Assembly: GCA_024195265.1 (NCBI GenBank)
Contig: JAJLRJ010000009.1
Span: 12,121,307 to 12,185,306, forward strand
Direction: 5' to 3'
Source: Dendrophyllia cribrosa
Lineage: Eukaryota; Cnidaria; Anthozoa; Scleractinia; Dendrophylliidae
DNA length: 64,000 nucleotides
A program made the position numbers and the translations under genes. The notes under the pieces were generated by a model that made no database searches, had not been told where the DNA came from, and was given only the letters and a program-made list of their open reading frames with translations. This document shows, one piece after another, positions 971-63,626 of this stretch (position 1 is the stretch's first letter; the number at the start of each line of letters is the position of its first letter).

Positions 971-1960
971 ATGGAGGCCAAACTCTCAAAAATCTATTAC
1001 AGCCCGAAAGGCTACTGGAAAGGTCTTGCCGCTGTCAAAAAACTAGCTGCAGCAGCCAAGGTCTCTGATGATGTCGCAAAGAAATGGCTGGTCAAACAAG
1101 CCCTCTGGCAAGTTTACCTCCTAGCGCCACGCCATATCCCTAGGCCAAAGTTTGATGTCTCATCACCCAATGCAGTGCATCAAGCAGATCTTCTCTTCCT
1201 GCCACACGACAAACTTCCACGCGGGAGAAAGGTTTACAAATACGCATCAACCGTGGTGGATGTGGCTAGCCGATACAAAGCAGCAGAGCCCCTGACTTCG
1301 AAAGAGTCTGAAGAAGTCTCAAGGGCATTTCAGAAGATTTACAGACGTGGGCCTTTGAAATGGCCGCAACTCTTGCAAGTTGACCCTGGGAAAGAGTTTA
1401 TGGGGGCTGTGACTAAGACAATGGAAAACAACAAAACGACCATTCGTCGTGGTCGGGTTGATATCCACAGAGACCAAGCAATTGTGGAGAGATTCAACCG
1501 AACCCTGGCTGAAAGGCTGTTTGGTTATCAGTATGCCGTTGAAATGAATATGTCCTCTGGCCGGCCGACTGCTTGGGTCAAAAGACTGCCAGATGTTGTC
1601 TCGGCCTTGAACAATGAAGTAACAAGACTCACTGGCAAGAAGCCAAAGGATGCAATCAAAGAGAAAGCCGTTTCTACCAAGCCTGCTACTCCATATGCTA
1701 GGCCTGTTGGGGTGAAAGAGAAGAAGCTCCCACCCCGGGTGAGTGTTAGATATCTTTATTACCCCGGTGAACTGGAAGGGGGTGGGTGGCGTGCGACCGA
1801 CCCGATCTGGTCTTTGAAGGTCTACCAAATACAAAGGATTATCACCAAGCCGAATGAGCCAGTGGTGTATTATCTCTACGACGGGCCTAAGCGAGGCTTC
1901 GTTCGTGAGGAGCTGATGGTTGTGCCGCCGGGCACTCAGTTGCCACCGATATCTTTGTGA
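971..1960 (+). CDS. INT: Polinton retroviral-type integrase, 329 aa
   Basis: An rve-fold DDE integrase that would catalyse 3'-end processing and strand transfer of the Polinton into host DNA. The catalytic triad is visible: D73 in QADLLFLP, D138 in VDPGKEF and E173 in VERFNRT, with 34 residues between the last two, close to the usual 35. The spacing and the ERFNRTLAERLF helix are typical of the Polinton/retroviral integrase family. The C-terminal about 60 residues (WSLKVYQIQRI to the end) match the small beta-rich, chromodomain-like tail seen in Polinton integrases. The frame is intact from ATG to TGA. The last 25 bases overlap the antisense stop end of the polymerase gene, a tail-to-tail arrangement. 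All three catalytic residues remain, so the protein could be functional. Confidence 0.9.
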   Translation: MEAKLSKIYYSPKGYWKGLAAVKKLAAAAKVSDDVAKKWLVKQALWQVYLLAPRHIPRPKFDVSSPNAVHQADLLFLPHDKLPRGRKVYKYASTVVDVASRYKAAEPLTSKESEEVSRAFQKIYRRGPLKWPQLLQVDPGKEFMGAVTKTMENNKTTIRRGRVDIHRDQAIVERFNRTLAERLFGYQYAVEMNMSSGRPTAWVKRLPDVVSALNNEVTRLTGKKPKDAIKEKAVSTKPATPYARPVGVKEKKLPPRVSVRYLYYPGELEGGGWRATDPIWSLKVYQIQRIITKPNEPVVYYLYDGPKRGFVREELMVVPPGTQLPPISL

Positions 1961-3066
1961 CCATATGCCAGCGTGTGGATGCCATCATCCTTGATCCAGC
2001 GCTTGGAGTCAAAGGGAGAGAGCGTTGTCTTGTTTAGATGCTCACCGAAGATTTGGTGGCCTTTGCTTCGGATCCTGTCCATCCCGTGCTTGAAGGTTCT
2101 CCTGTCGAAGAGGGCGTCCTTGTAATTCTGGTCGGTGATGTCTTTCTTTGTGACAACCTTGGTGGTGCCCTTTGCTTTCTTGATGTTTTTGTCGTCATCC
2201 AGAAGGATTGAGTACATCTTCGAGCGAAGACACACAGTCTCCGAGATCGGCTTACCTGCGCACTCGTCCTTCATCTTGCCAATGACCTTCTTGTTCTTCT
2301 GGCTGTGGAGTGGATGGTCCTTGGGATAATCACTTGTGTCGTAGAGCTCATCCAGAAGGTTCTCCATGTCTTTGTAGACATCATCCGTCTTGATCTCGAG
2401 AAGCAGAGAGTCTGTGTCTGTGTAGAGTAGGTCTACACACTGACCATATTTCAGCTTGAGATGTTTGTAATAGAAGTCATACATCAGTGTTCTGGATAGA
2501 TCAAGGATGAACATGCCTGTGCAAACTGGGCGGTTGAATTTGATTTTCTCTTTGTGCATCTGGAGACCCGCTAGTTTAGGTCCAAAGATCGTTGCTCTGG
2601 AAAACAGCGGGCTTGCGATGAGCTTTCTCATCTTGTCCTGCTCGTGCGCCCGAACAAGCTTCATGTCAATTCTGTTTCTGAGGTTCTCCATTGTCTTACC
2701 GAAGACGGAGTTGTTCATGAGCTTAAAGAAGTTCTTCTCGAAGTCGGAAGTGGCCTTCTTCCTGAGCTCGGTGTTTAGGGAGATGTATGGCTCCATCCAA
2801 GCCCTCTGCTCGAACTTTAGCATTTTGTGGATTTTCGTCAACTTCATCCCAAGATCCAGGTACTGCTGAAGATTTCTGTAATGCAGCACATACCTGGATT
2901 TGTTGTTCAGGGTAAAGAGCAGCTTCTGCGTCTTGTCTTCTGGCTGCCCCTCTGCCAAGGCCCTTTGGTATGGCGACATCCATTCCTTTGGAACGACCTG
3001 ACTTTCTGGGGCAAGAGGATAAGCGTTGTGCTCATCATGCAGCTCCTCGGGATACTCAAGATTAAC
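1936..3066 (-). pseudogene. POLB: Polinton protein-primed DNA polymerase B, C-terminal part, severed by a PLE
   Basis: Reading on the minus strand from 3066 to the stop at 1936, the open frame carries the C-terminal half of the family B polymerase palm and thumb. Motif B is seen as KLMNNSVFGKT (about residue 85 of the ORF beginning at 2979) and motif C as YTDTDS (about residue 186), both with expected catalytic residues. The frame is uninterrupted and would join in frame with the N-terminal part at 5651-8305 if the insertion 3067-5650 and one copy of the 15-bp duplication were absent. No promoter or start of its own is evident; the ATG at 2979 is internal to the original gene. The gene is therefore inactivated by a single, recent insertion. 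Confidence 0.88.
3052..3066. repeat. 15-bp target-site duplication, left copy
   Basis: ATACTCAAGATTAAC here is repeated exactly at 5651-5665, on either side of the Penelope-like insertion. Both copies lie in the same polymerase codons. Confidence 0.85.
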
Positions 3067-3119
3067 GAGAATTTAGTTTTATCGACTGAGTCGATAAGGT
3101 AAATTGACCACCGTAAAAA

Positions 3120-3168
3120 GATTCAAATAGCTGACGTTTCGAGCGCTAGCCCTTCGTCGGAGCGAATC
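3120..3168 (-). ncRNA. Hammerhead-ribozyme-like motif at PLE 3' end (minus copy)
   Basis: Reverse complement of the motif at 5496-5544 and identical to it: outer stem GATTC/GAATC, inner GCT/AGC, core CCGACGA, stem II GGGC/GCTC, then CGAAAC and GTC. Hammerhead motifs at PLE ends are established knowledge. U4 of the core is C here and one extra A precedes stem II, so activity may be weak. Confidence 0.55.
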
Positions 3169-3258
3169 AAGGAATTGTGGGTAGTGTGTGGTTTTATATA
3201 GTAAGCGGTGGAGCTACGCTATTGGTGGAAATTTGGTGACGTGAAAAACAAATGTAGA

Positions 3259-4491
3259 TTAGTTGAATGAAAAGCGTTCGTTGATTCCGTGGGGTTTGAG
3301 AGTGCCGATTTGAAAGATGATTTTTTGTTCTAGGTTTTTACGGCTTTCTGTGTTACCCTGGTGTAGGGAAAGGCCGCAGATTGTCATGTGTTGTTTAGAA
3401 TGGTTAGTAAGATTAAAATGGCGCGCGACTGGTTTGGATGCGTCTTTGTCATTTTTTTCAACGTCTCGGAGATGTTCACGAAAACGGTCGCCCAGTCTTC
3501 TCCCTGTTTCGCCAATGTATATCTTTTTGCAAAAAGTACATGTTATGCAGTAGATAACATTTACGGAGGTGCATGTAAAACGATCAGTGATTTTAATAGA
3601 TCGTTTGGGTCCTGTTATTTTGTCCGCGTTGTGAATGAAAGGACAAGTGTTACATCGTGTGCGTGTGCATTTGAAAGTTCCCGGTACATCGTCAGATTTC
3701 AGTGCGCTCGTAACTAGAAAGTTGCCAATGTTTTTGTCACGTTTGAATGAAATTAGTGGGGGTTGTGAAAAAATTCTGCCTGTTTCGGGGTCGTTTTGGA
3801 GTAATTTGAAATTTTTTAAAATGATGCTTTTGACTGTGTTGTTGTGTGGGTGGAAAGTGAGGGTGAATGGAATTCTCTCGTTCTCTTCCTTCTGTGGCGT
3901 TTGTAGTGCTGATTGTCTGTCGATCTGTTGTGCACGTTGTTGGCCCGTATTAACGACAGAGTCAGGGTACCCACGTTTCTTGAAAAACTGGCACATTTCT
4001 TCTGATTTGTTGGAAAAATCAGGGTCATCACTACATAGACGTCGAAGTCTGAGAAATTGAGAATACGGAATGGCGTTTTTAACGTGCGATGGATGTGAGG
4101 ATGAATGTAACAGATAACTGTGGGAATCTGTAGGTTTGTAGTGCACACTTGTGGATAAACTGTTACCGTTGATTGAAATATTAATGTCAAGAAAAGCGAC
4201 TGAGGTTTCGGAAATTTCCCAGGTATATTTTAGAGCGGGATGAAAAGTATTGACAGAAGTTATGAATTGATTAAGTTCCTCTTTACTGGAAGAGGTAGCG
4301 CCAATGCAATCATCGATGTAGCGGCCGTAGAGTTCGGGTTTGGTTCCGTGGTACTGATTAAAAAATTTGTCTTCGATGTGGCCTACAAAAAGGTTAGCGT
4401 AGCTTGGTCCCATTTTGGTGCCCATGGCGACTCCATTTACTTGTTTGTAGTAGTTTTGGGAAAATGAAAAACAGTTAAGTGTTAATTTCAA
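3259..4491 (-). CDS. PLE reverse transcriptase/GIY-YIG polyprotein, 5'-truncated (410 codons)
   Basis: The frame has no ATG at its 5' end (it opens at a TTG) because the copy is truncated. It begins inside the reverse-transcriptase palm: GVAMGTKMGPSYANLF is the motif before the catalytic loop, and YIDD at residues 58-61 is the active-site motif. A basic, low-complexity linker follows, then a cysteine/histidine cluster (CTRTRCNTCPFIH, about 275-287) and a GIY-YIG endonuclease domain starting NVIYC (311) with IYIGETGRR (about 324) and an REHL helix. RT plus C-terminal GIY-YIG is diagnostic of EN+ Penelope-like elements. A full-length protein would have several hundred more N-terminal residues. 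The remaining frame is intact. Confidence 0.85.
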   Translation of the reverse strand: MKLTLNCFSFSQNYYKQVNGVAMGTKMGPSYANLFVGHIEDKFFNQYHGTKPELYGRYIDDCIGATSSSKEELNQFITSVNTFHPALKYTWEISETSVAFLDINISINGNSLSTSVHYKPTDSHSYLLHSSSHPSHVKNAIPYSQFLRLRRLCSDDPDFSNKSEEMCQFFKKRGYPDSVVNTGQQRAQQIDRQSALQTPQKEENERIPFTLTFHPHNNTVKSIILKNFKLLQNDPETGRIFSQPPLISFKRDKNIGNFLVTSALKSDDVPGTFKCTRTRCNTCPFIHNADKITGPKRSIKITDRFTCTSVNVIYCITCTFCKKIYIGETGRRLGDRFREHLRDVEKNDKDASKPVARHFNLTNHSKQHMTICGLSLHQGNTESRKNLEQKIIFQIGTLKPHGINERFSFN

Positions 4492-5405
4492 TCAACGGTA
4501 ACAGTTTATCCACAAGTGTGCACTACAAACCTACAGATTCCCACAGTTATCTGTTACATTCATCCTCACATCCATCGCACGTTAAAAACGCCATTCCGTA
4601 TTCTCAATTTCTCAGACTTCGACGTCTATGTAGTGATGACCCTGATTTTTCCAACAAATCAGAAGAAATGTGCCAGTTTTTCAAGAAACGTGGGTACCCT
4701 GACTCTGTCGTTAATACGGGCCAACAACGTGCACAACAGATCGACAGACAATCAGCACTACAAACGCCACAGAAGGAAGAGAACGAGAGAATTCCATTCA
4801 CCCTCACTTTCCACCCACACAACAACACAGTCAAAAGCATCATTTTAAAAAATTTCAAATTACTCCAAAACGACCCCGAAACAGGCAGAATTTTTTCACA
4901 ACCCCCACTAATTTCATTCAAACGTGACAAAAACATTGGCAACTTTCTAGTTACGAGCGCACTGAAATCTGACGATGTACCGGGAACTTTCAAATGCACA
5001 CGCACACGATGTAACACTTGTCCTTTCATTCACAACGCGGACAAAATAACAGGACCCAAACGATCTATTAAAATCACTGATCGTTTTACATGCACCTCCG
5101 TAAATGTTATCTACTGCATAACATGTACTTTTTGCAAAAAGATATACATTGGCGAAACAGGGAGAAGACTGGGCGACCGTTTTCGTGAACATCTCCGAGA
5201 CGTTGAAAAAAATGACAAAGACGCATCCAAACCAGTCGCGCGCCATTTTAATCTTACTAACCATTCTAAACAACACATGACAATCTGCGGCCTTTCCCTA
5301 CACCAGGGTAACACAGAAAGCCGTAAAAACCTAGAACAAAAAATCATCTTTCAAATCGGCACTCTCAAACCCCACGGAATCAACGAACGCTTTTCATTCA
5401 ACTAA
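4479..5405 (+). CDS. PLE GIY-YIG region, second 5'-truncated copy (308 codons)
   Basis: From ISINGNSLSTSV onward the translation matches the minus-strand copy at 3259-4491, so the two were made from the same template or by one event. This copy is shorter: it lacks the YIDD reverse-transcriptase core and keeps only the linker, the zinc-knuckle-like CTRTRCNTC and the GIY-YIG domain (NVIYC, IYIGETGRR). It opens at a GTG with no true start, so it is a dead fragment although its frame is intact. Confidence 0.82.
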   Translation: MLISINGNSLSTSVHYKPTDSHSYLLHSSSHPSHVKNAIPYSQFLRLRRLCSDDPDFSNKSEEMCQFFKKRGYPDSVVNTGQQRAQQIDRQSALQTPQKEENERIPFTLTFHPHNNTVKSIILKNFKLLQNDPETGRIFSQPPLISFKRDKNIGNFLVTSALKSDDVPGTFKCTRTRCNTCPFIHNADKITGPKRSIKITDRFTCTSVNVIYCITCTFCKKIYIGETGRRLGDRFREHLRDVEKNDKDASKPVARHFNLTNHSKQHMTICGLSLHQGNTESRKNLEQKIIFQIGTLKPHGINERFSFN

Positions 5406-5495
5406 TCTACATTTGTTTTTCACGTCACCAAATTTCCACCAATAGCGTAGCTCCACCGCTTACTATATAAAACCACACACTACCCACAATTCCTT

Positions 5496-5544
5496 GATTC
5501 GCTCCGACGAAGGGCTAGCGCTCGAAACGTCAGCTATTTGAATC
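5496..5544 (+). ncRNA. Hammerhead-ribozyme-like motif at PLE 3' end (plus copy)
   Basis: Order on the plus strand: GATTC (5496-5500), GCT, core CCGACGA (5504-5510), A, GGGC, loop, GCTC, GAAAC, GTC (cleavage after C), AGC, ATTT bulge, GAATC (5540-5544). Stem I (GATTC/GAATC plus GCT/AGC), stem II and the invariant GAAAC and GTC are present. The canonical CUGANGA box reads CCGACGA (U4 to C). This lies between the GIY-YIG stop and the element end, the usual PLE location. Confidence 0.6.
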
Positions 5545-5650
5545 TTTTTACGGTGGTCAATTTACCTTATCGACTCAGTCGATAAAACTAAATTCTCGTG
5601 TTTCATCCCCCCACCGACGCAGCACCACAGTTTCTCTAGAAACTAACCCC

Positions 5651-5665
5651 ATACTCAAGATTAAC
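5651..5665. repeat. 15-bp target-site duplication, right copy
   Basis: Exact repeat of 3052-3066; marks the right border of the PLE insertion. Confidence 0.85.
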
Positions 5666-8239
5666 CTCGAGAATGTAACCAATCTTTCTGTTTGACCTCC
5701 ATCTCCTGATCTGGTGTTGTGTTGGAAAGACAGGGCACCATACGAAGTTACCAACTGGTAGAGGCTGGCTCATGGCCCATCCATAGAGATTGTTCGCGTC
5801 GAGATACATGATGTAACTTGAATCTTCGTCAGGGTTGTAGTCACGAAGATAGGGGTTGTTGGCCTTGCAGTGCCGCCTGCTCTCCATGGATATGCCGCCT
5901 CGCAAGCCTCTTTCAACAAAGAGGTGCATGTTGACGTCTGTGAGAAGCTCCAGGTTGATTTTCGTATACCTGAGAAGAGCGTCCCATGAGAGACCAGGGC
6001 TTGTATAATAATGTGCCGGGTCAAGCTTGTAGTTCCGCAGACATGTATTTTTGAAGTTCTCGAAAACATCAGCCAGAAGAAGCACATCTGTCTCAAGGTA
6101 GAGGTCGTGGTAATCCCCAAGAGTCATGCATCCAAATACCTCCCACACTTTTTGCGCTTGGGTGTATTCTTTGTCTGAGATGCCTTCCTTCTTTAGCTCG
6201 CTGTAGAAGGCATCCTTCGGTGGTAGGGAGGCCTCATCAAATCGAGCCCAAGAGTCCATGTATTCGTATGGGTAAATCCCTTTTTGCATGAGAAGGCCGC
6301 GTCTGGCTTGGTTCTTCTCGTGGCTTGCCGTGATTGTGAAGGACTCTGGCTTGTTTGCATCAACCAGGGCACTGAGGCTTGACTGCATGAACTGCAAGCT
6401 GTCAATGAACCTCAGCTTGCCGAGGGAGAAAGAGATGTATTTCTCCATGTTGTTTGGGATGCATTTCAAATCAGAATGCACGTCTGCAATACCACTCATG
6501 ATGTGATGCGCGTCATAGCCCTTCAATTTGTGAAAGACAACCGGGATTATTTCCGTTTTCGGGTTGGTTTGGAAATAGTCGATGTTGCAAAAATGGTGAG
6601 CCGCACCCCGATATTTGCCTGTGATGTGACAATGATCTTTGACTGCGTCTCGAACAGAGTCTTGGATTAGAGACTCCCCACAGAAAAGACAGTCGACCTG
6701 CTCGAATAATTTGTCTGTGATGGCCTGCCTTTTGTTTCTTGGTCCAATAAATGGGAACTCACCCAGTTTACCATCATCGTCCTGGATGTAAGTTTTGAAT
6801 GTCTTTTGATAACATTTGTTGGTGTGCCGATGAATGAAGCCCGCGTGTTCCCCGGTGTTTGGATCATAGACCGCAACGGCGTCCCTGTGGTTCTCCTTGA
6901 CGAGAGACTTGTCACAGATGTGGCAATCTGTCGCACGGTCGAATTCTGCCCAGTCTGTTCTTGTCATGGAGAGTGGTACCTTGTGTTGCAGCTCGTCTCT
7001 GATCGCTCCTTCCAGCTGTTGAAGGCTGTCGAGAAAGACTGGCACCGCATCCTCTCCTCTGTAAAGATAAGGCCCCTTTGTCTCTCCATCAGAGCGAACA
7101 GCTAGCATGCAGAACCCGCAGGGTTTATGTACGGATGTTGCAGTGGTGCTGCTCTGTTGGGGATCTGGTATGCAGCCGTGGACTTTTTCGACAATGCTTT
7201 CAAAGTCAGCATAGATGACCCAAGGCTTCTTCATCTGGTTATGGAAGTTCTTGAAGTGGAGGAAGTTTTCGCCTTCTTTTGGCATTTCAGCTCGTGCCGG
7301 CCTGCCTTTGACTCCTCTGCAATAGAATAGATGATCGGTGAGAACCCGTTCTGAAGAAAAGGCTTGGAGACACCTGTCGCAGTGATGCATAAGTCGACCA
7401 GCGTTGAACTCGCTGTGTAGAAGCCTGCTCATGCTCTTAATGTAACAATAATGTGATGTATGTGTGTCTGTGAGCATCATCAGATTAATCCTTCGCAGAT
7501 TGGGATTCTCTAGCTCACTTACTCTGATCACAACCACCTTATTGTTATTGTATCCATAAATGTTGATTGGAAGGTTGTTTTGACGCTCAACCTTGGATAT
7601 CTGACTCAATGGTGTTGGAAAATCGATTCCAGTGAAGTCTAGGCCATCATCAATGGGATAACTGCCTGTTCTGTTTGTGTTAACATTTACAGGAAACAAT
7701 GCAGATCGCAGTGCCCAGCGCAGACACTGGTTATCTCTGTTCTTCACATTGATGATAGCCTGCTTTGGCCTGAGTTTTGATGGGGTTGGGATAAATGTGC
7801 CACCTCGTAGAGGATGGTATGCCCCGAACTCAAGGTAAACAGTTTTGATGTTCTCAATCACCCAACCAGAACCCAACTGCTGCCATCTGGCAATCTCTTC
7901 CTCAAAGTCATTGACAATGCCTTCCAGGGTGCCCTCCTCTCGAAGCTGATAGAGATGTGTTACAAGCAGTGGATTAGCGTTCCAAAAGAAGTGATTAATT
8001 TTTCGATTGTCCTCGCCTTCCATTGAAAAGTGAACATCGAATGACAAAGTGACCTTCACCCCGCCAAGCTCTGTGACTTCGCGTGCAATTTTCTGGAGAA
8101 AAGCCGCCCGATTTGTAATGAAGAATGAATTGAGGTCCTTGATGGGGTAATCACCAGGGACGTTCATCTTATAACCATGCAACCAATTACCGAAGTAATC
8201 GTGGCTCCTTGGATTGAAGTCAAGACGTTGAGCCGCCAT

Positions 8240-8251
8240 GTTATATACAGG
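8240..8251 (-). promoter_or_regulatory. TATA-like motif before likely polymerase start
   Basis: On the minus strand CCTGTATATAAC directly abuts ATG 8239. Its likeness to the motifs at 104-119, 571-586 and 953-970 supports 8239 over 8305 as the start. Confidence 0.4.
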
Positions 8252-8339
8252 GGTTTTATTTTCTTCAATTGGTGATCTCGTGCCGGGGTTCTGTGCCATT
8301 GCCATGTTGGTTGGTATGCACGGGGTGGGGTTTCTTCAA

Positions 8340-9206: not shown

Positions 9207-31624
<22,418 letters not shown>

Positions 31625-34395: not shown

Positions 34396-35675
34396 GGACT
34401 TTTATCACTACGTATGTGGTTAGCGTCATCTTGTTTGTCGCCTTGGCAACAACGGTAGGATCATTTGAAGGTGCTGTCCATCCATGAACGCCTTGCATTT
34501 TCACGAAGCTTGCACGCTGTAATTCTTCCTTCTTCCTCTCGAGTCAACGCACGGAGAGATTTTGCGGTATGTACGTCGTGGCTGAAAGCCATATAGTTGT
34601 CAGCATCAACTAAAATATGCGTACATAAATTTGCATCACTAATGTAACACAAAAAAACAAAACCAGAAAGTCAGAGCCGCGGAAACCATGACTCGTCGGC
34701 TACGCCACGAGAAATTATGGGTGTGAGGAAGTGCTGGGTTATATCAGGAGCCTCCTGCTGGTTATCTGTATAACAAAGGATCATTATGGTCAGTGGAATA
34801 GTAGCTTGTGCGCAATTGTCTCCCATTTCCTTCACTTCACGCGGAAAAGGACGTCTGCGACGGTTACACCGGTTTGGAATCATGTTCACGTATCCTGCTG
34901 TTTCTCTAGGACCGAAGGACCGCACTCTGATTGCATGCATGACAGCAGGCATTGTTTGTAACAACTGTAACTGACTATCATCCCGAAATGCCGAAATTAT
35001 TTATGCGGCAGCAATTCATGCGGGGTTTGCCATTGACATATCCAAATATATTAGAAATACGTCGACTAAACATGTGTAAATGTGTGCCATGTTTTTCGCA
35101 TGTCGTGAAGCATAGTAACGACAAATATCTTGTTGAAGGTCGCGGTGAATTTAACGTTTTCACTAGAGTTTGCTGTACACTCTACATCGCCGTGTATCTG
35201 TGAACAAAGCTGAACAATGCGTTGGAAAGCTACAGAAACGACATGGCGTCTCCTATTGCAAACCAAACGACTTTTATCGACAATCCTCTCAATTCGTGAA
35301 ACCTCAAAGGGCAACTTTTTAAAATTAATGATTGTCAAGGCATGTAAAGCTTCAAAAGAACAACATCCTCGGAAATAACTGTGCTAGGTTCTCCTGTGAG
35401 ACGAATTCTTTTTGAAACGCGTTTTGAACGTCCAATTGTCCGCCATTGACCGGAAATTTGCGGGTGCAATTATATCATTTATCAGAAACCCATAAGTGGG
35501 TTAAAACGTGCAACTGCCTCTTGTACGCTTCAAAACAAGATTCCGATTATTCAATTTGCTAAGAAGTTGTCACAGCCATATTTGGAAAATCAAGATAAAA
35601 ATATTAACCAATTAATTCGCTAGAACAAGTTGCTTCCAATCTCCCTGGACCGAGGGGTTTCCAAATATGGTAATA
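34396..35675. other. Intergenic, no feature recognised
   Basis: About 1.3 kb without recognisable gene or repeat; several short overlapping frames on both strands look random. Confidence 0.4.
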
Positions 35676-35853
35676 TATATATATAGATAGGCTGAGCCTA
35701 ACAGCGTCGCTCTGAGCAAGCTTAACTAAGGTGAAACTAAAACTAAGGTGAAAGGTCGGAAGGACAAGAATTAAGATTGGCGACCGGGCTATTTTTCAAT
35801 TTTAGCAATTCTCAAAAACAGTATTACGCGACCGTCTGCACAGTACATTTAGA

Positions 35854-36442
35854 ACTAGACTGTTCACAGCCTCTCTATTTTCTCAGAGTCCGTCGAGTAC
35901 GAAAACTGCCGGCGAGCGAAGCGAGGACTGGAACTGAGCGCGAGCGCGGAGCGCGACGGGGTGGGGGCGGGGAAGGAGAAAAATAGAGAGACTGTAGACA
36001 TCATTGGAAAAAAAGTGAATTTCCCGTTTCTCCAACAACGGCCAATTCCCATTGGCTGAAAGGCGTCAAAACTGTCATCACCTTGACAACGGCGATTCAT
36101 AAGCGAGTTTTGCGGTTGAAGTTGTTGTCATCGCTTGACAGACACATTCGAATCTCGAACGTTACAAAAAATTCAGTCCTGTGGATTACTAGTCACGCGT
36201 GACGGAGCATGGCTGTAAAGACGAACAGAAAGAGGCAACAGAGAGTTTGCTCGAGTCAAAGGTATATGGTGTATGGGTCCGCGTTTTTTCCAAAGATGTC
36301 TACGGTCTCTTTATTTTTCTCCTTCCCCTCGCCCCACCCCCACCCCCTCGCGCTGCGCGCTCGTGCACCGCGCTCGCTTCGCTCGCCGGCAGTTCTCGTA
36401 CGCGACGGATTCTGAGAAAATAGAGAGGCTGTAAACAGTCTA
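35854..36442. mobile_element. Nested TIR element, 589 bp, 7-bp duplication
   Basis: Ends ACTAGACTGTTCACAGCC and GGCTGTAAACAGTCTA, with TCTCTATTTTCTCAGA and GCCGGCGAGCGAAGCGAG mirrored further in. Flanked by ATTTAGA at 35847-35853 and 36443-36449. Repeat G copy 2 reads through without it. Confidence 0.82.
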
Positions 36443-36463
36443 ATTTAGACCGTATAAAAGTTC

Positions 36464-37139
36464 ACTGAATTTAAAAAATCAACTAAACTGCAGATACCGT
36501 GAGCAATCTATTGCGTCACATTGGATCAAATACAAACAGTGATAAGCAACAGACCACTGCAAGGACCGATCAAACAATGTGAAAAGGCATTCTCTCGAAA
36601 TGGCACTACGGTCGGCCAAACCTGACATGATCAGCGCTCAAAACTAGAAAGCAGACACAGACAGCTGTTCATTTTCTATCTGCATTCTCTATCTAAAGGA
36701 GAAGAATAATATTGGCCATTCATTGTTTCTCTCCCTATGGCACTGACATGTATCGTTGTTAGGTTGAATTGCTCTTTGGCCATGTGCCACAATTGTTTGT
36801 GGCGTGACCGTTGCGCAATTTTCCCTATCACGGCTCTTTCTAGAATGATTAGCGACATATATGAGATAGGTGCAGTGGTACCGAGTCTCATTATGTTTTA
36901 GCTACGGCACACTGACGAGGGCCAAACAGCCCGAAACAGCTGTCTGTGTCTGCTTTCTAGTTTTAAGCGCTGATCATGTCAGGTTTGGCCGACCGTAGTG
37001 CCATTTCGAGAGAATGCCTTTTCACATTGTTTGATCGATCCTTGCAGTGGTCTGTTTCTTATCACTGTTTGTATTTGATCCAACTGTGACGCAATAGATC
37101 GTTCACGGTATTTGCAGTTTAGTTGATTTACTGAATTTA
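36464..37139 (+). mobile_element. Hammerhead-bearing PLE-like non-autonomous element, 656 bp
   Basis: Element 36474-37129 is flanked by ACTGAATTTA at 36464-36473 and 37130-37139. Arms of about 195 bp (36474-36669 and 36935-37129) are inverted repeats; the single-copy core of about 265 bp includes a hammerhead ribozyme whose 3' stem lies in the right arm. No coding potential seen. The design resembles PLE or retrozyme termini. Confidence 0.78.
36906..36950 (+). ncRNA. Hammerhead ribozyme, canonical core
   Basis: Stem I GGCACA (36906-36911) pairs with TGTGTC (36945-36950). Core CTGACGA (36912-36918) fits CUGANGA. Stem II GGGC/GCCC closes loop CAAACA. Then GAAAC, short stem III (AC/GT with loop AGCT) and GTC, cleavage after C36944. 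All invariant core bases are present, so this is the best ribozyme candidate in the window. Confidence 0.78.
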
Positions 37140-37435
37140 AGCACGTTTAAAAAACAATTCTCCAAAACTACACAAGAACACAAAGAAAAAGTCAATCGCA
37201 GATTGATATCAACATAAATTCCCATCGAAATATTAAATGTAATCTGTTTTACCTTCAAGTCCCTCGCTTGCTTGGAAATTCTTTAAATCTACGCTTCTTT
37301 GGTTGTGAAATCCGTAATGAAAACAAACATGTTGTGTGGCGTCCAACACGGGCCGCCGCGCGCGGGCGGCACACGCGCCCGCAAACCATTCCGCTAGCCA
37401 TAACCATGAAAAATGACGGGCATAGGTTTAGTTCT

Positions 37436-38510
37436 AATATATATAGATAGGCTGAGCCTAACAGCGTAGCACTTTGAACAAGCTTATAAACTAAGGTGAA
37501 ACTTAACTAAGGTGAAAGGTCGGAAACACAAGATTTAAGATTGACGACCGGGCTATTTTTCAATTTTAGCAATTCTCAAAAACAGTAAGCTTAAGGTTAT
37601 TACCCGACCGTCTGCAGAGTACATTTAGACCGTACAAAAGTCCACAAAAACAACTTTTTTTCTGTCTAGAATAACTATTACGACTATTTTCCGAATAAAA
37701 TACAGTTGTTGCTTGTCAAAAAATGCCCGAGAAACTGATTTGGAAATCAAAAATGCAAAAATACACAAACATATTTGCATAAGGCGACGCGAGTATAAAA
37801 TCTAAGTCTTGTTTTGTTTACATAAAATCGCTTTTCAATCTATGTAATGAGAACAAACACATAAAAATGGACAACACAATCTTCTTTCGAAAAATTTTAT
37901 TGAAATCTCCATTAGTTTATGTTCAATCAGGAAATTAATACAACCGAATTAAGCTACACGTTAATAAACAATTCTCCAAAACTAACGAGAACACAAATAA
38001 AAAGTCAATCACAGATTGATATCAAGATAAATTCCCATCGAAAAATGTAATTTGTTTTACCTTTAAGTCCCTCGCTTGCTTGAAAATTCTTTAAATCTCC
38101 GCGTTGGTTCTGAAATCCGTAATAAAAACAAACATCTCCCGCATTGATATAAACGTATGAAGGTCCTCGAAGCAAGATTTTATCCCTTAAAGCTCTTCTT
38201 TTTCCACTAAAGCGGCTTCTGAGTATCCCTTATTTAGTATCCCTGTCTTGAGTAGCAAACCGCGAAAAAAATGCAGGGAAATAACGACTTTACTGCTCCA
38301 CTAAACCCCGCGAAAGATCCAACTTTTAAAGTGTTTACCGAGCTGACGGCTGTGTAGCCGCGCGTGTGGCGTCATACGCGCATGTTTTGCGACGTCATAC
38401 GCGCCCGCGAATTAGCCTTGCCCAACGGACACACATGTCACGGAGGCGCGCCCGCGAAACATTCCGCTAGCCATGACCATGAAAAATGACGGGCACAGGT
38501 TCTATGAGTA
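37436..38510 (+). repeat. Interspersed repeat G, copy 2
   Basis: ATATATAGATAGGCTGAGCC at the left, GACGGGCACAGGTTCTATGA at the right. Directly abuts copy 1. GC-rich right part with CGCATGTTTTGCGACGTCAT and CGCGCCCGCGAA. Confidence 0.75.
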
Positions 38511-40311: not shown

Positions 40312-61454
<21,143 letters not shown>

Positions 61455-62143: not shown

Positions 62144-62180
62144 TTTCAGACGTTTCGGGCTTGGCCCTTCTTCAGTGAAA
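62144..62180 (-). ncRNA. Hammerhead ribozyme motif, minus strand
   Basis: Minus strand: TTTCA, CTGAAGA, A, GGGC, CAA, GCCC, GAAAC, GTC, TGAAA. Stem I TTTCA/TGAAA (5 bp), exact CUGANGA, stem II GGGC/GCCC, GAAAC and cleavage triplet GUC. One extra A precedes stem II and stem III is only AC/GT. Confidence 0.62.
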
Positions 62181-62585: not shown

Positions 62586-63470
62586 TCATACTCATAGAAC
62601 TAAACCTATGCCCGTCATTTGTCATGGCCATGGCAAGCGGAATTTTTCGCAGGCGCGTGTGCCGCGTTCCCGTGTTTTACAGGGCTAGTTCGCGGGCGCG
62701 TATGACGTCGCAAAACATGCGCGTATGGCGCCACACAACATCCGAGATGTTTGTTTTCATTAAATACGGATTTTACAACCAAAGAAGCGGAGATTTAAAG
62801 AATTTCCAAGCAAGCGAGGGACTTAAAGGTAAAAGAGATTACATTTTTTGATGGGAATTTATGTTGATATCAATCTGTGATTGACTTTTTCTTTGTGTTC
62901 TTGTGTAGTTTTGGAGAATTGTACAATTTAACACGTGCTTAAATTCAGTTGTATCGATTTCTTGAATTTCATCCAAGGCAGCTCGAATTCGATGCGCTAT
63001 AAATGGTACGTGTTTTGCTTTTAAACATAAACTAATGGAGATTTGAATAAAATTTTTCGAAAGAAGATTGTGTTGTTCATTTTTATGTGTTTGTTCATTC
63101 ATTACATAGATTGAAAAGCGATTTTATAGTTCTATCTTCACTCGCGTCGCCTTATGCAAATATGTTTGTGTATTTTTGCAATTTTGATTTCCAAATCAGT
63201 TTCTTGGGCAATTTTTGACAAGCAACAACTGTATTTTATTCGGAAAGTAGTCGTACTAGTTATTGTAGACGGAGAAAAAGTTGTTTTTGTGAACAGTTGT
63301 ATGGTCTAAATGTACTATGCAGACAGTCGCGTAATACTGTTTTTGAGAATTGCAAAAATTGAAAAATTAAAGCCCGGTCGTCAATCTTAATTCTTGTGCT
63401 TCCGACTTTTCACCTTAGTTAAGCTTGTTCACAGAGCGACGCTGTTAGGCTCAGCCTATCTATATATATT
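62586..63470 (-). repeat. Interspersed repeat G, copy 3 (reverse)
   Basis: CATAGAACTAAACCTATGCC at the left and CGCTGTTAGGCTCAGCCTAT then CTATATATATT at the right mirror the ends of copies 1 and 2 (35676-38510). Free of the two nested insertions of copy 1. Confidence 0.75.
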
Positions 63471-63626
63471 ATCGATTTATAGTAGCCGTGTTTGTGTTAT
63501 GCAAAATTTAAACCTGATATTTAAATGAAATGAAGACATTTCATCATCAAATGTTTTTTCGCGACAAACTACGCAAGGATTTTTGGAGAATTTCAGTAGC
63601 CTTGGCCAGGGTTGTGCCTAAATCAT
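63471..63626. other. Spacer between repeat G and the tRNA-like hairpin repeat
   Basis: Nothing recognised. Confidence 0.35.

Follow-up and report, generated by a model that had tools for sequence, protein, structure and literature searches.

The 64,000 bp window analysed here, from the scleractinian coral Dendrophyllia cribrosa (assembly GCA_024195265.1, contig JAJLRJ010000009.1, forward strand, positions 12,121,307 to 12,185,306), contains at 36464-37140 a non-coding element with a hammerhead ribozyme and long inverted arms. We consider this element to be a copy of a non-autonomous metazoan retrozyme that was inserted by the mechanism of Penelope-like elements (PLEs), a reading to which we assign a probability of about 0.8. 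The arms of ~195 bp correspond to two head-to-head complementary DNAs (cDNAs) of a 495-nt unit, that of retrozyme family A. The insertion fingerprint of this family, together with a predicted RNA start module that is common to other retrozyme families of this genome and one of its PLE families, points to a PLE as the mobiliser. The element and its target consist of the following features.

36464-36474, no strand: left target-site duplication (TSD), ACTGAATTTAA, of 10 or 11 bp (an A run blurs its edge)

36475-36669, minus strand: left cDNA, an inverted partial family A unit, from about unit position 184 inward past the cleavage site to about 486 (unit mapping)

36675-37129, plus strand: right cDNA with the ribozyme, family A unit from about 226 to 495 and on from 1 to 184 (unit mapping); the 5 nt before it, 36670-36674, are assigned to neither cDNA

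36906-36950, plus strand: type I hammerhead with stem III ACAGCUGU, predicted cleavage after 36944 (RF00163)

36935-37129, plus strand: right arm, the complement of the left one, unit 486 to 184 with its 3′ end facing outward (arm alignment)

37130-37140, no strand: right TSD, ACTGAATTTAA, running on into the host repeat (repeat comparison)

37141-37330, plus strand: host repeat that bears the target; other copies are at 62949 (minus strand), with the target sequence once, and at 37957 (plus strand), with a diverged target

The hammerhead is a full-model match to Rfam family RF00163 with 32.2 bits (E 6.8e-6 in a 1-kb search). As this is below the Rfam gathering score of 34, no RNA family is listed in a default scan of the whole window. 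In the alignment, stem II (GGGC/GCCC) and stem III (ACAG/CUGU) depart from the Rfam consensus with pairing kept. Stem III is self-complementary, and this is also its usual form in the further families of hammerhead retrozymes that the genome contains. The longest ATG-initiated open reading frame (ORF) of the element has 71 codons, that of a dimer of the family A unit has 75 codons, and the GC content is 0.43. An earlier note, made from the sequence alone, had described the hammerhead, the inverted arms and the direct repeat, and all three were confirmed. Its view of a non-coding, non-autonomous ribozyme element between retrozymes and PLEs is also supported. The arms had been said to begin at the cleavage stem, which had to be corrected: they run about 10 nt past the cleavage site.

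The inverted arms (36468-36669 and 36935-37137) are identical at 193 of 203 positions. They probably derive from two RNA molecules, judging from their sequences: they agree with each other at 173 of 179 positions, while the right arm is 98.9% like the copy at locus L020 and the left arm 99.4% like that at L079. Several of the 22 pairs in which both arms have at least 100 nt resemble the window pair in that their arms are closer to other copies than to each other. In five pairs (L019, L032, L036, L038, and L069) the arms are identical, and thus one template or identical templates are possible for these.

Copies were sought in the genome to which the window belongs (627 Mb, 22 contigs), and the results on them come from this one genome. 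In a comparison that listed at least 120 proteins, the sole organism named is the coral Pocillopora meandrina (76% identity). Only part of the candidates was scored (e.g. 40 of 577), so that copy counts are lower bounds. Family A is a multi-copy family, with at least 154 matches to the element listed (best 40 of 577 candidates scored). Its unit, with 495 nt between consecutive cleavage sites, was defined from a tandem locus and is numbered from the first base after the cleavage. Tandem units occur at some loci (e.g. L018, L042), and many loci are single or inverted. The ribozyme core is whole in 62 of the 74 sites found in family A loci, and some of the other 12 are interrupted by a junction.

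The 59 loci that were mapped comprise the 40 best matches to the element and 19 loci retrieved by a query of the final 100 unit nucleotides, which involves no length selection. The sets are partly chosen by similarity, the first 40 with a query bearing the ~200-nt arms. When segments with at least 89% identity and at least 20 nt are counted (n=93), 86 of the 93 cDNA segments terminate within -5 to +15 nt of unit position 184, a point some 184 nt downstream of the cleavage site. The seven segments ending elsewhere are from L010, L031, L041, L047, L077, L078, and L087. There are 32 minus-plus loci, 15 plus, 11 minus, and one minus-plus-plus, and no plus-minus locus was found among the 59. In all 32 minus-plus loci the 3′ ends face outward and the 5′ ends are variable. 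The arm-bearing query may inflate the share of pairs, which is 32 of 59 overall compared to 10 of 19 when only the loci that the short 3′-end query retrieved first are counted (the others being five plus, three minus, and one minus-plus-plus). The many copies with differing target duplications that the earlier note had anticipated do exist. The common arm boundary that it had also anticipated does not, since the inner arm ends vary among copies, an outcome that the note itself had named as speaking against its reading. The boundary that it described for the cleavage stem is a single instance of this variation.

Target duplications of at least 8 bp flank 27 of the 32 pairs (11 bp in nine cases, 12 bp in eight, 8 bp in four, and 9, 10 and 13 bp in two each), compared to 1.6% of 992 swapped pairings. 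Duplications of at least 10 bp are found for 21 of 32 pairs versus 0.1% of swapped pairings. With narrower flanks, at least 8 bp are duplicated in 22 of 33 pairs and in 10 of 26 singles, the value for swapped partners being ~1%. The first 10 bases of ACTGAATTTAA have one further occurrence in the window, at 62949 (minus strand), within another host-repeat copy that lacks the element. This host repeat is composite, with several copies around the element (35650-38500 and 62600-63471). Compared with these copies, the sequence to the left of the element is rearranged.

The length-unselected search gave 41 matches; 7 of these are ends of internal units and 34 are outer ends. The cDNAs with these 34 ends measure 88-1236 nt (median 342.5). 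The cleavage site is crossed by 25 of them, and no cDNA terminates within 5 nt of this site. A linear RNA that has already cut itself is thus not the usual template, and the linear self-cleaved monomer is disfavoured in this role. Insertion of a self-processed RNA, as proposed in the earlier note, is not supported, the fixed end being at unit position 184. An apparent pile-up of 5′ ends in the ribozyme or near a full lap among the 59 loci is not claimed, because 40 of these were chosen with the arm-bearing query; it is not clear among the 34 ends unselected for length.

The same insertion fingerprint is found for PLEs. One pair from the window was used for comparison.

3052-5665: head-to-head PLE pair, arms at 3065-4179 (minus strand) and 4485-5599 (plus strand), 1115 bp, 100% identical

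The TSD of this pair, ATACTCAAGATTAAC, has 15 bp (3052-3066 and 5651-5665), and a tail is present at the right end only. The pair sits between a Polinton-like polymerase ORF (5636-8305) and an ORF without Pfam match (1936-2979). Polinton/Maverick-like ORFs occupy 971-8305, with DNA_pol_B_2 and Endonuclease_7 at 5636-8305 and an integrase core (rve, with a score below the cut-off) at 971-1960.

In the genome, neighbours within 6 kb among 102 scored matches of the family PLE1 are minus-plus in 20 cases, minus-minus in three, and plus-minus in none. All ten fetched PLE1 pairs have a TSD of 13-17 bp and exactly one tail. For PLE2 (window 28366-29007), the TSD has 12 bp in eight of nine readable pairs and 14 bp in the ninth, the tenth pair being truncated at one end; one tail of ~28 nt is found, by eye, in all nine readable pairs. 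The pairs of both families were chosen from listings for being minus-plus neighbours. Together with five pairs of the families PLE-X and PLE-X′ described below, there is one tail per pair in 10 PLE1, 9 readable PLE2 and 5 PLE-X/X′ pairs (L049-L107, L146-L171), and it may be on either side. This may reflect a rule by which each of the two PLE strands has its own start site. The window region 28366-29150 represents the 3′ end of PLE2, with a minimal hammerhead-like motif at 29111. Another hammerhead-like motif of the minimal PLE type (CTGAAGA..GGGCC..GCCCGAAACGTC) is found at 62175 on the minus strand, beside its own inverted copy.

A genome search for hammerheads gave at least 73 matches (best 74 of 97571 first-look candidates scored). 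Exact hammerhead patterns with the second loop variant of family A, which is not that of the window copy, gave no match in viral contigs and none in genome contigs. The loci fetched are 20 of a family B (L108-L127) and 18 lower-scoring ones (L128-L145), the latter being 6 of family C, 8 of family D, which is characterised from few loci, and 4 more of family B. The unit of family B has 527 nt and its cDNAs end at unit ~97-106 or ~189-201, two sites that are ~92 nt apart. Twelve of the 20 loci have both strands, all in minus-plus order, and 11 of these 12 have one end per site. The TSD strings of these 11 two-site loci have 10-14 bp. In L110, L114, and L121 an end misses the site by a few nt or is split in two.

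In predicted circular folds of family A, a hairpin (alpha) carries the start site in its large AU-rich loop; a second hairpin (beta) is adjacent, and a stem P1 closes both. Two such predicted modules, one per start site, occur in tandem in family B. The first predicted module is found in family C, with a whole second module in L141, and family D ends in a similar predicted loop with an indistinct P1. A strict descriptor scan found the module in A, the first module of B, and C in L133, L135, and L048, plus another place in L048; it missed PLE-X, D, C in L144, and the second B module. With MAFFT, the A, B2 and C2 stems failed to align with B1/C1. In L018, the sequence GGTCCTTGCAG at unit positions 93-103 of family A resembles the motif with which the alpha-2 loop begins in B and PLE-X. 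It lies ~90 nt before the used start, is not itself a used end, and is perhaps the remnant of a lost module. A likeness of the family A spacer to PLE1 (TTTTTACGGTGGTC) was dropped.

The module is also found at the 3′ end of one GIY-YIG PLE family, PLE-X. From 150 GIY-YIG matches, 40 were taken and all 40 flanks were used, together with 40 flanks of PLE1/PLE2. The alpha-1 stem together with the beginning of its loop is present in 20 of 20 PLE-X and 4 of 4 PLE-X′ flanks, and in none of the 56 others (16 GIY-YIG and 40 PLE1/PLE2). PLE-X codes for an ORF of 785 aa with RVT_1 (6.1e-10) and GIY-YIG (1.5e-6) domains, which is intact at L186 (750-3104). Its ends, as read by eye, fall into the first alpha loop in 12 cases and into the second in 8. 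All five PLE-X/X′ pairs have one end per alpha loop, with common flank strings of 12, 15, 10, 12, and 9 bp (the 15 bp include template bases). Directly past the start site, one subfamily of family A has ATTATTATTT and PLE-X has ACTATTATTT; both lie in AU-rich sequence, and the likeness is only suggestive.

A covariance model, R1, was built from nine B1/C1 modules only, and its E-values are rough. It matches all eight PLE-X flanks that run through the module with 41.1-44.5 bits (E 2e-9 to 2e-8) and two PLE-X′ flanks with 17.6 bits (E 0.027); the sole other match among the 80 flanks, with 12.5 bits, is in a PLE-X flank. The best chance matches in the window have 12.9 and 12.7 bits. The second B module scores 36.0 bits in L111 and 37.7 bits in L115. 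At the family A start site, 20.7-23.3 bits are reached in five of the eight loci given (L011, L013, L017, L018, and L019).

From these data the following course of events may be proposed. Family A would be transcribed and its hammerhead would cut the transcript into 495-nt units, which are presumably circularised, as is known for other animal retrozymes. A Penelope-like protein with reverse transcriptase and GIY-YIG domains would then recognise the RNA module, i.e. P1 enclosing alpha with its large AU-rich loop and beta, and would cut both target strands ~11-12 bp apart. Reverse transcription would start in the alpha loop, at unit position 184, from both target ends. The two cDNAs would grow inward to differing lengths, in many cases beyond the ribozyme junction, and would be joined head to head. 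The partner of family A is, from the sequence comparison, likely a PLE with this module.

Going further, we are inclined to think that animal retrozymes parasitise PLEs, in that they carry a portable start module taken from, or common with, the autonomous GIY-YIG element PLE-X of the same genome. A PLE protein acting as a dimer would place RNA on either side of a staggered cut, and cDNA synthesis would begin in the alpha loops. In families B and C, a single RNA with two modules may be enough. Family A has one module and would need two RNAs, which would result in the inverted arms.

Other explanations share some of this evidence. An uncleaved linear multimer, rather than a circle, may be the template of the PLE-type mechanism; a multimer and a circle would account equally well for cDNAs that pass the junction or span over two units, and we give the multimer a real though minor chance. 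It is improbable that the same retrozyme is copied by a long interspersed nuclear element (LINE), with target-primed reverse transcription and twin priming as the source of the inversions. LINEs make TSDs and 5′ truncations, and there are 147 PF14529 endonuclease matches in the genome; however, only one opposite-strand neighbour pair within 6 kb was seen by eye among these 147, and the start module is common with a PLE (the flanks compared being those of PLE and GIY-YIG elements). Twin priming is not known to yield two outward-facing copies of the same 3′ end.

Self-priming, where a cDNA folds back at the palindromic stem III and copies itself into the second arm, would make the junction at the ribozyme a mechanistic one. 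The window junction, 10 nt beyond the cleavage site, is indeed within the palindrome, and self-priming has been proposed for Penelope palindromes in the part of PMC3846280 consulted. We nevertheless regard this as highly improbable, because inner ends vary among copies, the window arms differ more from each other than from other copies, and the two outer ends directly adjoin the TSD, close to the start site. If the element were a DNA transposon or a foldback element with a ribozyme in it by chance, the long inverted arms and the 10-12 bp TSDs would be accounted for at a single locus. Mutator-like elements have long terminal inverted repeats and a TSD of about 10 bp. Across loci this is barely credible: the outer arm end is fixed and the inner ends vary, so there is no terminal inverted repeat of defined length; 26 of 59 loci have one strand only, some with tandem 495-nt units, and carry the same 3′ end; and the window arms resemble different copies.

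One result speaks against the hammerhead: its fold is not the minimum-energy structure of the isolated 65-nt stretch (z -1.32; 21 of 200 shuffles are equally stable), nor of the L018 unit folded as a circle. Several others weigh against a PLE-inserted retrozyme. In family B, L118 has a plus piece that ends at neither site, and this locus has no TSD. The asymmetry with one longer end is seen in only 2 of 32 family A pairs (L010 with +43, L041 with +47), neither of which has a recognisable TSD. Family A and PLE1 have different TSD lengths (p 3e-6), and there is a less marked difference between family A and PLE2 (p 0.005). The R1 scores for family A are modest, its module has stem sequences unlike those of PLE-X, and R1 has no match at the module in three of the eight loci given (L010, L015, and L021); L021 was missed although its module has the same letters as that in L019, so that default filters lose matches. 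Formal covariation within B1/C1 gave no pair changed on both sides, as the stems hardly vary.

Elsewhere in the window, a long poly-G tract (45888-46274) is read as a poly-glycine ORF.

The fingerprint and the common start module make a link between retrozymes and PLEs testable. The families supply several natural RNA substrates for an internal start of reverse transcription, which has been reported in vitro for one lizard PLE. In addition, some apparent repeats with long terminal inverted repeats in animal genomes may be products of bilateral retrotransposition. The use of PLEs by animal retrozymes has been proposed earlier on other grounds (PMC7229834, PMC7761336, and PMC11722881, as far as their consulted sections go). 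A 2020 review states, in the part consulted, that animal retrozymes lack a conserved motif from which the autonomous partner could be deduced (PMC7761336). A report of the retrozyme insertion pattern or of the module was not found in the open-access literature, covered mostly as titles and abstract openings.

The element had been put forward in the earlier note as an undescribed mobile system, which did not hold, as it has most of the testable features of metazoan non-LTR (long terminal repeat) retrozymes. According to the consulted part of PMC7229834, these are short tandem repeats of 150-450 bp, from dimers to multimers. The class is further characterised by a GC content below 50%, the lack of LTRs, primer binding sites and polypurine tracts, circular RNA expressed in vivo, and ribozymes that cleave themselves in vitro. 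As in those of Acropora millepora, for example (Cervera & de la Peña 2020, PMC7229834, in the same part), family A has a type I hammerhead per unit, is non-coding, and has many copies, with tandem units at some loci, a GC content below 45%, and TSDs of more than 4 bp. The units of 495 nt (A) and 527 nt (B) are unlike the ~170-400 nt given there, and head-to-head pairs with a fixed internal 3′ end, as at 32 of 59 loci here, were not found described in its main text, as consulted. With the plant LTR retrozymes it has in common that they are non-autonomous ribozyme retroelements with a presumed circular RNA; these differ by type III hammerheads, LTRs, and 4-bp TSDs (PMC7229834 and PMC7761336, consulted sections).

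The likeness to GIY-YIG PLEs concerns the insertion itself, namely head-to-head inverted copies, TSDs of ~8-17 bp, an internal stem-loop start of cDNA, and a hammerhead upstream (PMC3846280 and PMC11167929, in the parts consulted). Rotifer Penelope elements have inverted terminal copies with 8-10 bp TSDs and an optional tail (PMC3846280, same part). Unlike PLEs, family A codes for no protein (no reverse transcriptase/GIY-YIG ORF) and has one start site. Unlike the minimal hammerhead of PLEs, that of the window copy is full, and its loop II has the Rfam type I consensus sequence. Family B shares with PLEs the one longer end per pair. The purified lizard PLE cuts and extends both strands in vitro and starts cDNA internally at two stem-loop sites, the interval between the two starts being the genomic tail; ribozyme mutants leave insertion unchanged (PMC11167929). 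By analogy, the genomic pattern found in Dendrophyllia is what this lizard PLE chemistry would predict.
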